From contig WIXG01000106.1 in the NCBI GenBank assembly GCA_009869945.1, forward strand, positions 1 through 64,000: DNA of 64,000 nt, read 5' to 3'. The notes below the pieces were generated by a model, which saw only the letters and a program-made list of their open reading frames with translations, made no database searches and was not told where the DNA came from. Position 1 is the stretch's first letter. Every line of letters begins with the position of its first letter. The DNA is from Mesaphorura yosii (taxonomy: Eukaryota; Arthropoda; Collembola; Poduromorpha; Tullbergiidae). The position numbers and the translations under genes were made by a program. This document shows, piece by piece, positions 6,343 through 15,068 of this stretch.

Positions 6343-6998
6343 TCTCTCCTACCTACACAAAAGAGAATTAGGCATTATATCTTCACTAATCAGAAATAGA
6401 ATGAAGTTATACAGTCTTAAGTTGTATGCCCTTACTTTTTCAGGCTCCAGTCTTCAGTCCACCTTCAAAATTACCTATCTACACCTTCTCATACTGTATG
6501 TAACTTATTTTGCTTCCACGACGCAAGATCAGACTTAGAACACTGCCGAATTCCTTAAGTAGCTAAAATTCACGGGATAAAACATGAAACAACGGGACTT
6601 TCCGTCTCTGTTTTCAAAAACATCAAACATATCTTGTGAATGAACGTTAAGCGATTTGTGGATAGACTGAGAAAAGGCTCAAATACGGGATTTCGCTCCT
6701 TTTTTGTTCGCCAAAGCAAGCCAACTTAACCCTTGCATTGAACCGACATTGCGTCTTGTCATCCTTTCATGATTTTGGGGACAAAGGAAAGGTGTTGTTC
6801 TTTTACAGATGTCGGACACCAGAAAATGTTAATTAGTCAGTTAGGCATTAGACCAAACGTTTGCTGGTGACTAATAAAATTGTGGATGTTCGGCTAACGC
6901 TACTTCTATTATTTTAATTGTGTTATAATCTTGAGTAGAAGATATACAGAGGAAGTTACTTCTTTTTTTGCATTCATACATTGGGAATCTAAACTAAA
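6343..6998. other. Intergenic region
   Basis: About 650 bp between the 5' end of the unrecognised gene and the 3' end of the glucoamylase-like gene, both on the minus strand. It must hold the promoter of the former and the 3' UTR of the latter. Short ORFs here lack splice context and coding character. An ATTAAA-type signal on the minus strand near 6911-6920 could end the glucoamylase transcript, but this is weak. Confidence 0.5.
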
Positions 6999-8357
6999 TT
7001 ACAAGATAACCATTAAGAAAACGACAATGAGTGTCATTCTACTAAATGCAGTCAATGCAGTTGACCCTGACACCGGGTCGGGCTGAAATCCGACCGCGGA
7101 CATGGCTCGCTTGACGTGCGGATCTTCCATGTAATACTTCCAGACGAATCCAGTGCGGTAGTTTTCCGCCATGAGCATCGTCACTCCCACGTCGATCCCA
7201 ATCACATCAGGATTGTACCATGGCGGATTCATGATTGGGTTGAAGGCATCGATGAACCCGTACGGACCCCAAGTCTGGGGAAAATTTGTCCTCAGATTAC
7301 GCAGCACAGCAATGGTCTCTTCAGGCAGGAAGGGAATTGACCCTGCAGTCGCACAGGGCACGATGGCTCCTTCCGGTCGTCCTCGCAGTGGCGGTCCTCC
7401 CCAAGCGTCGTAGCCGTATGGAGTGTCTGACGCCGTGATGCCCCAGAAGTTTTCGTTGTACGAACTGTAATTCTTACCTAGCTCCTCGATGCACCACGCC
7501 TTGTGTGCTTTAGTTGCAATCACAGAATTTTCGTAGTAATTTGCGTACTTATCTCGGACGCCCTTGAGGTCGATGAAGGCATGAGAGAACTGATGCGTGA
7601 ACAGCGGGCCATTTCCGTCGATATACGTGAAGTCTTTGTAGGTGATTGTGTGGCGCGTGAAGTCGTTCCAATGAGCGGCTGGAATTGGATGGGTTGTGGA
7701 GCCGATGGCTTGGAAGAGCAGAATTATCAGCTCGCAGTACCGATTCCAGGAGTCTTCCAGGAATCCGTTCTCCGGTGACCAGCCCATGCTGAGTGTTGTT
7801 TTTCCGTTCAGCATCCACGCAAAGTTGACGCGGTCGTAGATTTCGGTGGCCAAGTCCACAATGTGGTGCACCTGCGAGAAGTAGTTGCGAACCATCAGCA
7901 CGCCTCCGAGCAGCAGCGCCGTGTCGATGGAGGACAATTCGGAGTTCCAAACTCTTTCACCGGTGCTCATGTTGACAAAGTGGTAGTAGAATCCTTCGTG
8001 ACCATCGAGCTCTCCATCGACGATGAACTTCAGAGTGTTCTCAATTCGTCTGAAGATATCGGCTCGATCGTAGTAATTTCGTTCGTATGCAATTGCCAAT
8101 CCCACCAACCCAAAACCGGTCGCTGCTATGCTGGCCACATCGCGTGGATCCTCAGCGCCTGACGCAAGCGCCCGATCTTTTACTTGGCCGGATTCGGGAT
8201 CCGCTTGTTCCCAGAAGAATTTGAAGGCTGCTCGTTCAAGCTCGTCTAGCAGAGCATCGTCTTGTGGGGAAAGTTGGCTCGACGCAGAAGCCACTAAAAA
8301 TGTACAGATTATGAATGCGAAGGCGTGTAGAAATGAAGAATTCGATAGACAAGTCAT
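6999..8357 (-). CDS. Secreted glucoamylase-like (PF10091-type) protein, intronless, putative GPI anchor
   Basis: Single-exon 452-aa protein resembling the glycoamylase-like (alpha/alpha toroid glycoside hydrolase-type) family that is widespread in bacteria. A signal peptide occupies about residues 1-27. Family blocks appear in order: ERAAFKFFWEQA (41-52), GFYYHFVN...TGER..NSELSSIDTALLLGG (122-152), a W/ENG block followed by GSTTHPIP (193-226), GPLFTHQFSHAFIDLKG (250-266), WGITASDTPYGYDAWGGPP (305-323), and PDVIGIDVGVTMLMAENYRTGFVW (383-406). The last about 16 residues are hydrophobic after a small-residue SGST stretch, which looks like a GPI-attachment signal. It probably hydrolyses glucans outside the cell; the substrate is not predictable from sequence. 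No introns, unlike most neighbours, and a bacterial-type architecture suggest horizontal acquisition. A TATA box lies about 155 bp upstream. Confidence 0.9.
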   Translation of the reverse strand: MTCLSNSSFLHAFAFIICTFLVASASSQLSPQDDALLDELERAAFKFFWEQADPESGQVKDRALASGAEDPRDVASIAATGFGLVGLAIAYERNYYDRADIFRRIENTLKFIVDGELDGHEGFYYHFVNMSTGERVWNSELSSIDTALLLGGVLMVRNYFSQVHHIVDLATEIYDRVNFAWMLNGKTTLSMGWSPENGFLEDSWNRYCELIILLFQAIGSTTHPIPAAHWNDFTRHTITYKDFTYIDGNGPLFTHQFSHAFIDLKGVRDKYANYYENSVIATKAHKAWCIEELGKNYSSYNENFWGITASDTPYGYDAWGGPPLRGRPEGAIVPCATAGSIPFLPEETIAVLRNLRTNFPQTWGPYGFIDAFNPIMNPPWYNPDVIGIDVGVTMLMAENYRTGFVWKYYMEDPHVKRAMSAVGFQPDPVSGSTALTAFSRMTLIVVFLMVIL

Positions 8358-8513: not shown

Positions 8514-8521
8514 ATTTTATA
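8514..8521 (-). promoter_or_regulatory. TATA box (TATAAAAT) of the glucoamylase-like gene
   Basis: On the minus strand TATAAAAT lies about 155 nt upstream of the ATG at 8357. This would place the start of transcription near 8485-8490 with a 5' UTR of about 130 nt. The match to the consensus is good, but the initiator is not decisive. Confidence 0.5.
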
Positions 8522-9711
8522 TTCAGAGTATTCCTCTGAAGAGCTTCGTGTGTAGAACACCGCATTCTTTTTCAACACACCAAACCGTGGTTGTAATTAC
8601 AAATCAATTTTCAGATATATAAATAGCAATTGAAGATTCATGAGTAATACAGAAGCCATGTTCAGGAAGGTATAATTTAATGATATTTCAAGTTTATTTA
8701 AGTATCAACATGTTTGTCATTTTTCCACTTGACACGACGCAACGTTTTGTGCTTGAACAAAAGGCTGAAACGATCAAATCAAAAACGATGAGTATTGCGT
8801 GAATGATTTCTCAATTCCCAATTGTAAGCTGTCATCCACTCGACTTATGTAGCGTAAAGCAATTTCATCGGGAATCAATGCGTTGAATTTTGAGCCTAGC
8901 TTTGTGGAATTGAGATGGGTGTAACACGAGTAGCAATCGACAATCGAATTGAGACACGATCAGACCAAAAATGTCATCTACAATTAGCCAATAATTTCTA
9001 GGGCTCTAACGCCTACGTGCTATTTATTGTCATATTGCCTGTTGCTTCAGTGCCTTATCAAAAAGGCTCCTGACATTCTGCGTACGCACTCCTACAATTG
9101 TAGTTTTGAGAATTTTCCATGACTCTCATGTTGATTTCAAGGGCGCGAACTATGCACGTATGCATCAGATTAATCAGATATTTTACTCCAGTTTCACTTT
9201 TTTAAGCTATTATATACCAACAGCTCTAATTAATTATGAAATACAAAGAGTTAAATGGCGTGTGAAGGGAATGTGAAATATAACATGTCACACTGCGGAC
9301 TCTATTACGCTAGTCACAAAGAGTCAAAGAGAAAGAGTTTCACAAGCGTAGATTCAAGTTTATTGACTTAACGGTAGGTTGTTTACAATGTCATAGTCTG
9401 GAGTTCCGGGTTATTGCCTCCGGAATGCCAGTCAAGAGACATAAATCCCACATCCCATGAATTATGGAGCCTCCGGTGCTCAGGGCAGGCAATTGATCAT
9501 CTATTCAAGCAAGCACAGCAGACTTGACGCTTTGACGGTCAATTAAGTACACGATTCCTCTAAGCAACCTCTTGTGGGCAAAACCGAACTCCTAAACTAT
9601 GAACGTATGACACGCCGACACGCAGCAAGATGCTAAATTAGCGTCGGATTTCGCAATCCAGGAAACTTCAGCCGGGTGGGTTGGCCAGTAGGCAGTCAGT
9701 CATTTCTAGAA
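8522..9711. other. Intergenic region between divergent glucoamylase-like and receptor genes
   Basis: About 1.2 kb of AT-rich non-coding DNA serving as 5' flank for two divergently transcribed genes. A TATATAAATAG at 8616-8626 reads on the plus strand, but no gene follows within 1 kb except the receptor. No long ORF, repeat or RNA gene is seen. Confidence 0.5.
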
Positions 9712-12003
9712 ATGGTTCGATGGGCCATGGGTCTCCTGCCTTCAAACGTTTTCGCTTTGCTGCTGCTGCTGCTCACAACTCGTTGCCTTAAATCTCAGAT
9801 TCTCGAAGCCTCAAAACTCCTTGAATACTCCAACACTGACTGTGAGCATCAAGAAACGCTGAAATTCTTGGAATTCTTCATTCCAGCCCATTTCCCAGAG
9901 CACGTCCAAGTCAATGTGATACAAACGACGCAGTTTGGCAGCAACTACCACGACCCGGTGGACGAAATTGGTGGCGACAGAATAACGGAACTGCTTCAAT
10001 TCCAATTCCCGAGAATAATGATCAAGTATTTTGTTCTGCAGAATGTGTATCATGTGAATATTGAGAAATACAGTATCTCCGATGATCACCGACGTTTCAT
10101 TGGATGGAGGTCGCTGAACATCGTCAATCTCATGGATCACAGCACGATTCCCAGAGAAACTTTCCTGAATAATATTGTCAGGACGGATGTTGACTGGAAT
10201 TTGGTGGTGTCACTGAAGCCAGGACGGCCCGGAGTCAAACCGAATATGGAAAGAATATCGCAGCTGATAAATTACAATTCGTTCAATTACTGGAAGTACA
10301 AAATTCAAGTGTACACGAAGCGACAAGAAAACACATCAAAATCAGAATGGACGTTGCAACTACAAACTACACAATCATTCGATTTGGATTTGGAAAACAA
10401 CGAAACTGATTCAGCTTGCCACAATGAAGGCAGATACATTCACATTGTACAATCCGTATGTTTCTACTGCAAGTACGGGAATTCTGACATCGTCAGAATC
10501 CACGAGTCCTCTGCTGGGCTCGGGTTAGAATCTACAAGGAAAACACCTGCCAACGACGGACTCACATTCGACCAACTCTTTCCCGACTTCACAAAGGCTT
10601 TTCATGGTCGCAAACTGAAGGCAGTTGCTGGAAGAGGAATTCCTGTCCTGAATCGTTTCGAGAAGGACAACAGCACGGGAGAATTTGTGCCCACGGGTGG
10701 GTTTCAAACTTCCGTCGTGCTGGCCTTGAAGAAAGGAATGAATTTTACAATGGAGATCGGACTGGACTCTTTCGGAGTGCTCCAGCCATATGGATACTTT
10801 GATGGCATCGTCGGCAAACTGCAGTACAACCTGGCGGACTTGGGATTTGGCGCTGCTATCAACTTAGAACGTTACCGCGCAGTGCATTTCTTCGCTCCAA
10901 ACTCCTTCCAGAGCATGCGGTTTGTGACCAACCGCCCAGCAGCACGGATCAAGTGGCAGGCCATTTTTCGGTCTTTTACATTTAATGTTTGGGTTTTGCT
11001 GCTTGGGACCGCGTATTTCATGCTTTTGCCTCTGTTCATGGTCATCTACAGAATGAAAATGAACACGTCGACGGCGTCACTTGGACCCGCATTTGTGGAG
11101 GGGCTTGGATTTCTGGTGCGCCCACTGCTTGAGCAACCGCTTTCAAAGATCCAAATGCTCAATGACGCCGGCGTGGGTGGAGCGACAGTCGTCACGCTTT
11201 GGCTGCTGGTCACAATCGTGCTTGGCACGGCATACAAAAGCATTCTCATGCGAAACCTCATCTCGCCCACCTTCGACGTGGTTCCAAATACGTACGATGA
11301 ACTGGCCCAAGATAAGCACTTTGGAATCTACGTGCACTATGTGGGCGGTGCACTGGAGAAAGACATTGCAAGAAGCAAAACGGCAACATTCCAAGCAATT
11401 GGGAGGCGTGTTGTTCTGGAGAATGACATCGTTTCCTGCATTGAACACGCGTACTCTTCAAAGTCGGCTTGTCTGTCATATCGGGACAACATTCTCGGCG
11501 AATCGAGTCGCCATTTCAGTGATAAGCACGGGAATTTGCTGGTCCGCATAGCTCCTGAAGCGGTGTTCAGTCTGCCGATTTGTTTGCTCTGCCCCAAGAA
11601 CGCATTGTACAAGGACTCGATGGACTTCATCTTACGACAGCACTTCGACATGGGCCTCAGCACTAAATACACATTCGACGAGATCGAGCTGGCCTCGGAT
11701 CAAGGGAAACATGCGGCGAAAACAAAACACAAGGATCGGCCGGTGCTGGAGACGAAGTCCACAGTTTCGCTCAGCATCGAGCACTTTTTAAGCTGCTTCG
11801 CTTTACTGGCGGGTGGCTGCTCCATCGCTTTTGTGGCTTTCTTGATGGAGTTCATTACCCACTGTTGCAAGCGATGCATCAGTCAAAGATATGAAGTCAA
11901 TACGAAGTCGAATCCTGCAGCAACTTCTATTTTTGTCCAAGATTTTCAACATGTCCAGCGTTTCACAAGCAGTAGCAACAGGGAATGGTTTTTGACGAAA
12001 TAA
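9712..12003 (+). CDS. Divergent ionotropic receptor (variant ionotropic glutamate receptor), intronless
   Basis: 763-aa membrane receptor of the protostome IR family, ligand-gated cation channels used mainly in chemosensation. I chose the ATG at 9712: the frame is open 36 nt further upstream, but only from a GTG, and the ATG start directly precedes a Leu-rich signal peptide (GLLPSNVFALLLLLL). After a long extracellular N-terminal region come the S1 ligand-binding half, TM1 (about residues 424-446), a pore segment, TM2 (about 490-510, ending LGTAYKSILMRNLISP, the place of the iGluR SYTANLAAF motif), S2 (FDVVPNTYDELAQ onward) and TM3 (about 691-713), then a short cytoplasmic tail. The canonical glutamate-binding arrangement is not kept, so the ligand is unknown. 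A single exon is usual for divergent IRs. AATAAA overlaps the stop codon and recurs at 12079-12084. Confidence 0.93.
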   Translation: MVRWAMGLLPSNVFALLLLLLTTRCLKSQILEASKLLEYSNTDCEHQETLKFLEFFIPAHFPEHVQVNVIQTTQFGSNYHDPVDEIGGDRITELLQFQFPRIMIKYFVLQNVYHVNIEKYSISDDHRRFIGWRSLNIVNLMDHSTIPRETFLNNIVRTDVDWNLVVSLKPGRPGVKPNMERISQLINYNSFNYWKYKIQVYTKRQENTSKSEWTLQLQTTQSFDLDLENNETDSACHNEGRYIHIVQSVCFYCKYGNSDIVRIHESSAGLGLESTRKTPANDGLTFDQLFPDFTKAFHGRKLKAVAGRGIPVLNRFEKDNSTGEFVPTGGFQTSVVLALKKGMNFTMEIGLDSFGVLQPYGYFDGIVGKLQYNLADLGFGAAINLERYRAVHFFAPNSFQSMRFVTNRPAARIKWQAIFRSFTFNVWVLLLGTAYFMLLPLFMVIYRMKMNTSTASLGPAFVEGLGFLVRPLLEQPLSKIQMLNDAGVGGATVVTLWLLVTIVLGTAYKSILMRNLISPTFDVVPNTYDELAQDKHFGIYVHYVGGALEKDIARSKTATFQAIGRRVVLENDIVSCIEHAYSSKSACLSYRDNILGESSRHFSDKHGNLLVRIAPEAVFSLPICLLCPKNALYKDSMDFILRQHFDMGLSTKYTFDEIELASDQGKHAAKTKHKDRPVLETKSTVSLSIEHFLSCFALLAGGCSIAFVAFLMEFITHCCKRCISQRYEVNTKSNPAATSIFVQDFQHVQRFTSSSNREWFLTK

Positions 12004-12587: not shown

Positions 12588-15068
12588 TTATTGTCGAAGT
12601 TCAACATAATTGGCTGGAAAGAGCCCGACCTTCCCACGTACTTCTCCTCTCCACCAACCCTCGTCAATCTGCAATAAAATCAGGGTCATGAATTTCTTGG
12701 CGTCAGCGCCAGTAAATCTATGGTGTTTGAGCACATACCATTTCAATATTGGTGATGACATCACCAGGATCAAAGGTAACTTCGTCCTCTGCAGCTGCAG
12801 TGATAAAAAATACACAATAAGTTTTCAAAAGTTAAATTGAGTTCATGATGTATACATACCAGCTTGATAATCATAGACAGCCACTGCGGTGTAAGTTCCT
12901 TGGGTACTTGGAGAAGCAGAGTTTGAAATGTTTCCGTTGCTTTTCGCCGCTGGCTCGTCTTCCCATTCAGCGTCGTCGGTGGGATGATCCTCATCTTCCT
13001 CTTGTCTCAGTCTTCGTTGTGCGGCTGGTAGGCTCGCCTCCATCTCTCTCGCGGCTTGCTTTTGCTTCTCCTCCACAGCCAGAAGCTCGCGTTCCATGTC
13101 CTTCAGTTCCTGCATCGCACGGTCCGCCTCCTCTTCCCTTCTGCGGAGGTCATCCTCTTCTTCTTCGCGGGCACGTTGTCGTGCCATTTCTTCCATCTCT
13201 CTTCTTTCTTGGGCTTGGTATCTCAGTTTTTCTCCTTCCTGTTCCTTCTCGCGCTGAATTCTTCTAGCCTCATCTTCATTTCTCTTTCTATCGTCGGCTT
13301 CACGTCTTTGAGTTTCCAATCTAGTCCGTTCGGCTTCCTCTTCTTCCCAATTTTTACGTGCTTGCTCCGCTTCTAAGGCACGGGCCCTTTCCTGTTCTGC
13401 CTTCAATTGCTTTTCTGAAATCTCCTGTGATTTCCGAACCTCTAAACCCTTCCTTTGTTGCTCCACTTCCTTCGCCTCCAATTCCTTACGCTTCCGTCTT
13501 TCTTCTTCAGCTTTCAGACGTGCTTCTTCTTCGTTCGTTTTGGCCATACTCTCGAACTTTGCACGAATGTCGGACGTTCGTCTTTCAATTTTAGGTTTCT
13601 CTTTCTGATAAACACTCCCGACTTTCTCCGGTTGACTGTCTTCAAAATTATGCACGGATTTATCAACGCGGTATGTCTGAAAGCGTAAATATCATTGATT
13701 GAACTTTCTTCATAATATAGACTCTCATTACTATCATTACCTCCTTGTCAATTTGTTGGCTCGGATGTTTTTCAACTTGCTCGTGATGATTCCAGTCCAA
13801 TGCACTTTTATCTTGCCTTTCATCCAGTCCAAAGCGACCGCCGAAGCCCTTGGCGTAATCTAGTTAAAGCAAGTCACTTAACTCAATTTCTCCTCTTGTT
13901 CATAGAATTCACGAACCTTTCTGCGACTCATGTTTTTCAACTTTCTCATGGTGGCTCCAATCAACTGCACTCTTATCTTGTCTATCTTCAACTCCAAATT
14001 TTCCGCCAAATCCTTTGGCATAATCTGCAAAATCAATGTTTAAGAATTACTTCAAATTACTTGGGTGGACAGATTTTATTTTTTAGAAATATTCCGTGAT
14101 AATTACCCTTTTGTGATTCGTGCTTTTCCACTTTTTCATGATAGCTCCAATCAACCGCACTCTTATCTTGTCTATCGTCCAATCCAAATTTACCACCAAA
14201 CCCCTTAGAGTAATCTGAAAAATGGCAACCACAAGTGCATTAATAACTTCAATGATAATTTTCAGTTTAAGCAACAAACCAATCACCTTTCTGTGACTCA
14301 TGTTTCTCAATTTTCTCATGATAGCTCCAATCAACAGCGCTTTTATCTTGCCTATCAGTCATGACTCCTACAGATCATTAGAATTAAAATTAGTACAACG
14401 TTTCGTCCTTATGCAATATATGTACTAAGTTACTGGAAGATGCTAACCGTGCTTTCCACCAAATCCAACGCTATAATCTTTTTGCGATGCATGCTTCTCT
14501 AATTGTGGAACATAATCATGACCAACAGCTGATTTATCCATTCTAAAGTGAGGAGAGATTAAAATTTTAGAACTACGCCATGCATAAATTAAAATTGACG
14601 TAAGGTCCAACCGATCAGACTCAACTCCAAATGCTCCTCCATAACCAAATCCAGGTTTTGATTCTTCCAAAATTTTCTTTTTCGCTTGCGCATCGCTTGC
14701 TGCAGTTTCCTCTCTGAGTTGCTGCATGCTAAAAATATTGAAGAGCAACCTTAATATTGCATCACAGTTTAAGTTTCTTCAATTCGAGTTTCGTACTTGA
14801 TTGAACCCGCAGTCCTTCCGGAGCCTTCGATTGTTTTTGAGCCCCATCGCTGCTCTTCTTCGGAGACGTCATTGATAAAATCTGGGTCGGTCTCCCAATC
14901 ATCATCCCCATTTCCTTCGGCAGTGGCCCTTGCCAGCGCAGCCGGGCTGAGACCTGCCATATCAAGCAAACCATTTTAAATTATTGCAATATTTACATTG
15001 GCGAAAAGATCCGACTGTCATTTCGTGTGCGATCGCAATTTGGACTTACCAACAGTTGTCTTCCACAT
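12588..15068 (-). CDS. Cttn: Cortactin, 11 exons
   Basis: Actin-branch scaffold that binds Arp2/3 and F-actin at the cell cortex. Exons on the minus strand: 15068..15050, 14953..14797, 14728..14612, 14542..14448, 14367..14287, 14214..14107, 14024..13917, 13859..13741, 13676..12860, 12794..12739, 12668..12588; 1758 nt, 585 aa, all phases consistent. It starts MWKTTVG as cortactins do. The acidic Arp2/3-binding DDW motif is at residues 24-26, followed by [16 protein letters not shown]. About five 36-37-residue cortactin repeats (GFGGKFG...[10 protein letters not shown]...EKHESQKDY) span residues about 84-268. A long charged helical region rich in Glu/Arg covers about 285-490, and a C-terminal SH3 domain (AVYDYQA ... 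WWRGE ... [12 protein letters not shown]) covers about 530-585. The middle repeats are encoded one per exon with phase-1 boundaries. The proline-rich Tyr-phosphorylation region of vertebrate cortactin is very short or absent. Confidence 0.97.

Follow-up and report, generated by a model that had tools for sequence, protein, structure and literature searches.

An arthropod gene of probable bacterial ancestry for a predicted, probably membrane-tethered GH144-type β-1,2-glucanase

The stretch of DNA analysed here (64,000 nucleotides, referred to as the window) contains an intronless gene at 6999..8357 on the minus strand, whose product we read as a membrane-tethered GH144-type β-1,2-glucanase that was taken up from an Acidobacteriota-related bacterium and serves in digestion at the cell surface; the probability of this reading is put at roughly 0.7. 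Foreign carbohydrate enzymes are frequent in soil arthropods, and the kind of event is already known, e.g., in the springtail Folsomia candida, where 809 genes were called foreign and 229 of these have CAZy domains, as described in PMC5490193. In the literature searched, neither an animal GH144 enzyme nor one with a membrane tail was found among the papers listed. If a tethered animal GH144 enzyme is real, it would put a bacterial polymer with ties to symbiosis and infection directly within the reach of an arthropod, or under its control. Three domestication steps also come together in this one gene family: the change of an export signal, the gain of a membrane tail, and a duplication with the change of a residue at the substrate site.

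The gene and its genomic setting

Open reading frame analysis of the window showed an uninterrupted minus-strand frame of 452 codons that runs from ATG to stop at 6999..8357. Its 452-residue product matches PF10091, the Pfam family named “Glycoamylase”, at residues 203–412 (7122..7751, minus strand), with 214.6 bits against a cut-off of 27 and an E value of 1.6e-63, and the domain was also recovered in a family search of the assembly. A TATA box had been claimed in the first-pass annotation, and a TATAAAA motif, a possible TATA box, is indeed found about 160 bases before the ATG (8515..8521, minus strand); an ATTAAA motif, a possible polyadenylation signal, lies about 80 bases past the stop codon (6913..6918, minus strand). 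An Rfam scan of the window gave no matches.

The gene lies on contig 106 (220 kb) of an assembly of 93.0 Mb in 1127 contigs. PF00379, a cuticle-type domain that we take to be a mark of arthropods, has 66 matches in this assembly versus none in 14 control genomes (prokaryotes, as far as these are named), and by this count the host of the gene is an arthropod; a COX1 search of the assembly had no hit. A cytosolic HSP70 exon at 659–2386, with HSP70 1A as its best PDB match (8.8e-276), is a clearly animal neighbour; it gave the sole match when ten long frames of the window were submitted to Pfam, and before it lies the border of an earlier exon, with what looks by eye like a GT donor. To the right of the gene, on the plus strand at 9676–12003, an uninterrupted frame of 775 residues has the look of a divergent ionotropic (glutamate-type) chemoreceptor, from its signal peptide and membrane segments, with no Pfam match at E ≤ 0.01.

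The gene had been described as a single exon among multi-exon neighbours. As the receptor-like frame next to it is itself uninterrupted, a single exon does not by itself count for much here as evidence. The central claim, i.e., that 6999..8357 is an intronless gene of a bacterial family in an animal genome, is upheld by the exact frame, by PF10091 and by the animal-side contig. Farther along the window, a minus-strand frame at 12846–13691 that encodes a highly charged coiled coil, with the SH3-like stretch VAVYDYQA near its end, resembles a cortactin/drebrin-like exon; it had no Pfam match at E ≤ 0.01, and its region shows a strong base skew.

Enzyme family and catalytic residues

The protein of the window gene (C106) matches eight PDB sequences at E ≤ 1, and no other chain is listed at that threshold. 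Six of the chains align from about residue 24–31 to residue 425–426 (E ≤ 2e-50); 5z06, the seventh, aligns in two stretches (1.5e-43). The scores of these chains, namely 4gl3, 8xul (XcSGL), 3eu8, 5gzh/5gzk (CpSGL), 4qt9 and 5z06, range from 152 to 192 bits, whereas the GH194 protein 8xuk reaches 52.7 bits and matches over a partial length only; no GH162 chain is among the PDB matches at E ≤ 1. We take 4gl3, 3eu8, 4qt9 and 5z06 to be GH144 chains. XcSGL (8XUL) and CpSGL (5GZH/5GZK) are named as GH144 endo-β-1,2-glucanases in PMC12102758. Judged by these PDB matches, the family nearest in sequence to the C106 protein is GH144, ahead of GH162, GH189 and GH192–194, and, as far as sequence identifies it, the enzyme is a GH144-type β-1,2-glucanase. 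An (α/α)6-barrel fold is predicted from the near full-length homology.

A glucoamylase of family GH15 was considered and rejected: PF10091 is the sole Pfam family above the cut-off, and NCBIfam gave no match at E ≤ 1. The term “glucoamylase-like” used in the first-pass annotation is thus a misnomer, the relatives of established activity being GH144 endo-β-1,2-glucanases (PMC12102758) whose key residues are kept.

These residues were followed in a 40-row alignment that combined both animal proteins with 38 bacterial loci taken from the 80 introduced below. E209 (7731..7733, minus strand) aligns with the general acid, E211 of CpSGL and E239 of XcSGL (PMC12102758), and is E in 40/40 rows. An acidic residue, D145 (7923..7925, minus strand), is present at the position of the proposed general base, E142 of CpSGL, the role of which is given in section 3.3 of the same paper, and is D in all 40 rows. 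F253 (7599..7601, minus strand; 40/40 rows) and Y316 (7410..7412, minus strand; 39/40 rows) align with the clan-defining F268 and Y330 of CpSGL and F286 and Y367 of XcSGL. The Glu, Phe and Tyr of clan GH-S are accordingly all found in C106. The sole exception at Y316 is the animal paralogue C185, in which the Tyr is missing and His takes its place; because this clan Tyr makes a stacking contact with the sugar in subsite −3 (PMC12102758), the C185 enzyme may, to judge from this residue, have another substrate range.

The two characterised enzymes also differ from the C106 protein. XcSGL (XCC2207), which scores 187.7 bits over C106 residues 30–425, has in common with it the acid position (occupied by Q in the E239Q mutant that was crystallised), the D at the base position and the clan Phe and Tyr (PMC12102758), but it is bacterial and has longer loops, and the signal and tail of C106 are not shared. 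CpSGL, at 175 bits, has the four corresponding residues named above, with E where C106 has D at the base position, and is without the animal tail; its D139 aligns with S142 of C106 (S also in XcSGL), and its D135 with a gap.

Bacterial relatives and phylogeny

In a search of genome contigs from 84,980 species for bacterial relatives, at least 585 stretches were confirmed, of which the best 80 were kept. The top five of these 80 loci (L015–L019) are all from Acidobacteriota, at 47–52% identity and E values of 5e-138 to 1e-115, and the next best is an Ignavibacteriales protein at 43% identity. On all four sister contigs examined, the match is adjoined by bacterial genes, namely those for GH39 and an outer-membrane barrel (L015), polysaccharide export (L016), an outer-membrane barrel (L018) and methylmalonyl-CoA mutase (L019).

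A maximum-likelihood tree of 88 rows (the 80 loci, six plasmid proteins and the two animal proteins) joined the animal pair at 100/99 and placed it with the five Acidobacteriota proteins in one group at 100/100, in agreement with a quick tree. Two further loci from Acidobacteriota, L044 and L070, lie elsewhere in this tree, and the donor group is therefore to be seen as a clade and not as the phylum. A match at E ≤ 1e-100 is present in 57 of 396 genomes from the phylum of L015 (that of L015 included), and the 29 best-scoring further loci from this phylum (L100–L128) were added to the tree. The enlarged tree has a group of 36 rows at 100/100, consisting of the animal pair and 34 Acidobacteriota rows, within which the animal pair is joined to 26 Acidobacteriota rows, the remaining eight being set apart, with a support of 87/92. 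When all 34 bacterial rows are constrained to a group that excludes the animal pair, the log-likelihood falls by only 0.37 units (AU p 0.476), and therefore both a position nested within and a position sister to the Acidobacteriota are compatible with the data.

The animal pair thus groups inside or beside a bacterial clade, as expected of a horizontally acquired animal gene. A horizontal origin from bacteria, as had been proposed at first sight of the sequence, is in this way supported by the maximum-likelihood tree, the rows of which are bacterial except for the two animal ones. Among the matches listed, the Acidobacteriota PF10091 proteins (L015–L019 and L100–L128) are the closest relatives, at 45–54% identity and in one clade with the animal pair; several of them have a twin-arginine-like start, and they are without a comparable hydrophobic C-terminus.

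A viral carrier was also considered and was rejected, as the search of viral contigs confirmed no relative and two human-gut phage records, at 28–30% identity, are too distant. Two plasmids carry relatives of the gene. A plasmid-borne relative in Spirosoma oryzicola (39% identity) adjoins genes for a TonB-dependent receptor and RagB/SusD, a neighbourhood as expected of a glycan-using system. On a plasmid of Criblamydia sequanensis (L013), a member of the Chlamydiota that lives in association with amoebae, a family relative adjoins a site-specific integrase, and this plasmid is a mobile setting for the PF10091 family near eukaryotes.

Paralogues and age of the transfer

A DNA search of the assembly located the gene in four places, i.e., the window gene (C106) and copies on C185, C474 and C785. 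The C185 paralogue is intact and encodes 473 residues, with PF10091 at 196 bits and 55% protein identity to C106. The C474 copy is broken as assembled, by an in-frame stop and a frameshift, and the C785 copy is a broken 5′ part; the latter is absent from the PF10091 family search of the assembly, which lists only C106, C185 and C474, because it holds little of the domain. Over about 2.15 kb (L002:18–2163 versus L003:1–2113), a stretch that spans a trypsin flank and the broken glucanase copy, C474 and C785 are 90% identical; past this stretch, the remainder of the gene is missing in L003 (C785). Trypsin exons lie beside the glucanase copy on C474 (Pfam) and the same flank is aligned in C785, so that the shared stretch, which includes this flank, is to be regarded as a segmental duplication. 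Since two of the four copies are broken, the function of the enzyme may be dispensable.

Directly downstream of the C185 paralogue lies a carboxylesterase gene. A TTTTAG splice-acceptor-like site, noted by eye about 10 bases before the ATG of this paralogue (L004, ~1334–1350), suggests a putative intron in its 5′ UTR. Beside the broken copy on C474, a plus-strand frame (L002:3653–4216) with several hydrophobic segments has a gustatory-receptor-type look, with no Pfam match at E ≤ 0.001.

Comparison of C106 with two separately open pieces of C474 gave dN values of 0.18 and 0.20, dS values of 1.8 and 3.1, and dN/dS ratios of 0.10 and 0.067, which are rough because dS is saturated; between C106 and C185, the synonymous differences are beyond correction and give no finite dS. 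The ratios point to long purifying selection on the animal copies. The transfer, if there was a single one, appears from the evidence to predate the duplications. A recent transfer, as it had been framed in the first-pass annotation, was rejected, as the synonymous sites of C106 versus C474 are saturated; with two intact and two broken copies in addition to this saturation, the transfer looks ancient.

Export signal and C-terminal tail

The N-terminus of the C106 protein has the features of a Sec-type signal peptide, predicted to extend from residue 1 to about residue 27 (8277..8357, minus strand; cleavage placed by eye), with the hydrophobic core FAFIICTFLVASA and a KD of 2.72 at residue 12 in a 12-residue window; the eukaryotic signal peptide proposed earlier is in line with this signal-like N-terminus. 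In the Acidobacteriota sisters, for which start codons were assigned by script, a stretch that we take to be twin-arginine-like is located near the start in L015, L016, L017 and L019, and L018 is plain hydrophobic there. A loose twin-arginine pattern occurs in 23 of the 34 proteins from Acidobacteriota; since it also picks up the RRSF within the start of the domain (L018, L111, L114), this count is given no weight as evidence.

At the other end of the protein, residues 441–452 form the hydrophobic tail MTLIVVFLMVIL (7002..7037, minus strand; KD 3.24). For the last 12 residues, KD is 3.24 in C106, 2.58 in C474 and 0.83 in C185, with bacterial maxima of 1.11 among 86 relatives and 1.64 among 29 further Acidobacteriota; the highest 12-residue values within the last 40 residues of the same two sets are 1.68 and 1.83. 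In C185, the hydrophobic stretch (KD 3.07) is followed by eight residues, HYITGCNF. A strongly hydrophobic C-terminal stretch (12-residue KD of 2.6–3.2) is thus a feature of 3/3 readable animal C-termini and of 0/115 bacterial relatives. This confirms the tail that had been noticed in the window gene, and its absence from the examined bacterial relatives speaks for domestication in the animal genome.

The assessment of a GPI anchor consisted of a hydropathy count and a simple rule. By this rule, the C-terminus of C106 follows the GPI pattern, with the small residues S430-G431-S432 (7062..7070, minus strand) as candidate omega site, then a short spacer, and then the twelve hydrophobic residues that reach the very end; C474 has a Ser/Thr-rich stalk before its hydrophobic tail. 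A GPI anchor is likely in C106, and the broken C474 fits the pattern as well. For C185, a transmembrane tail would fit as well as a GPI signal because of the eight residues that follow the stretch. The GPI anchor suggested in the first-pass annotation is plausible for C106 and C474, and C185 is a poor fit.

Proposed role and alternative explanations

In the explanation that we favor, an ancestor of the arthropod would have gained the gene from a bacterium of, or near, the Acidobacteriota. After the transfer, the bacterial export signal would have given way to an animal Sec signal, the C-terminus would have acquired its hydrophobic tail (in C106 probably a GPI signal), and the gene would have been duplicated. 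Once exported, the enzyme would be anchored on the outside of the cell membrane, presumably that of epithelial cells in the gut or elsewhere, where it would act as a digestive enzyme on β-1,2-linked bacterial glucans, both linear and cyclic. If the route of the clan applies, E209 would serve as the acid via the 3-OH of the substrate and D145 as the base, resulting in an inverting cut of the β-1,2-glucan. The simplest use to assume is the digestion of bacterial glucan. The surface β-1,2-glucanase might alternatively be directed at living bacteria and not at food, in defence or to control symbionts: it might strip or sense the cyclic and periplasmic β-1,2-glucans with which symbionts and pathogens establish themselves in a host, and C185, with its changed substrate-site residue, might now serve as a binding protein or act on another glycan, a possibility that we hold to be distinctly unlikely.

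The same origin could also have led to a different job, i.e., that of a surface enzyme acting on another glycan, for instance one of the animal or of a symbiont, with C185 having diverged further. This would be in keeping with the His of C185 at the position of the clan-defining Tyr 316, and with two loops of other relatives that, in the alignments, are absent from the animal and Acidobacteriota proteins. We are aware of no activity assay on any member of this clade. The C106 protein, however, keeps every named clan and catalytic residue, each conserved in 39–40 of 40 rows, and β-1,2-glucan is the substrate of those hydrolase groups in the clan that have been assayed, Group 4 apart, for which no substrate was found (PMC12102758); we consider another glycan unlikely, while giving it some weight. 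The origin itself might have been less direct, through a fungus or a protist and not straight from a bacterium. The GH45 cellulases of springtails and oribatid mites, which are thought to be fungal in origin (PMC13084967), would provide a parallel for such a eukaryotic go-between, to which we assign little probability.

That the gene is foreign and yet part of the animal genome can be questioned from two sides. Bacterial contamination, or a chimeric assembly that joined bacterial DNA to an animal contig, would suit a PF10091 family that is bacterial in everything searched and a coding part without an intron. The composition could be read in the same sense, as the G+C of the gene (0.515) is above the window mean (0.426) and its GC3 (0.60) lies inside the range of four bacterial sisters (0.51–0.67), but this GC3 is also near those of the HSP70 frame (0.58) and the receptor-like frame (0.56), and because it resembles both, composition is indecisive. 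The four copies, however, lie on four contigs with animal neighbours, beside HSP70, trypsin and carboxylesterase genes, the two broken ones within the common duplication with its trypsin exons, and the tail is absent from bacterial relatives; contamination was rejected on these grounds and is scarcely credible. Vertical inheritance, on the other side, would have an old eukaryotic PF10091 gene kept here and lost elsewhere. Among the endo-β-1,2-glucanases of the clan, those of GH144 and GH192–194 are described from bacteria and GH162 is almost exclusively eukaryotic (PMC12102758, section 2.1), so that a eukaryotic lineage of the clan does exist, but it is the GH144 chains that match, with none from GH162 among those listed at E ≤ 1. 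The grouping with Acidobacteriota at 100/100 is also not expected from deep vertical descent, and we regard this explanation as very improbable.

Further comparisons and observations

Two other known systems may be set beside the proposed tethered glucanase. The GH162 enzyme TfSGL belongs to clan GH-S, is inverting and has its acid position as in GH144, but its base is located elsewhere and the clan Phe is replaced by His (PMC12102758). FcAraf43, a GH43 enzyme of Folsomia candida, is likewise a bacterial-type carbohydrate enzyme of a soil arthropod; it is active and has a signal peptide reported as absent from its bacterial relatives (PMC9460274). It differs in family and linkage, and the term “GPI” occurs nowhere in the main text of that paper.

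Two more contigs of the assembly gave minor observations. On C382 (L135), a frame fragment has, by eye, the look of a BEL/Pao-type retroelement protein. On C759, the best of 12 assembly matches (C759:14869–15240; L133:874–1881, minus strand) is an intact intronless frame of 335 residues with a DIOX_N domain; it resembles a bacterial isopenicillin-N-synthase-type oxygenase and is possibly another foreign gene or part of a bacterial contaminant contig.
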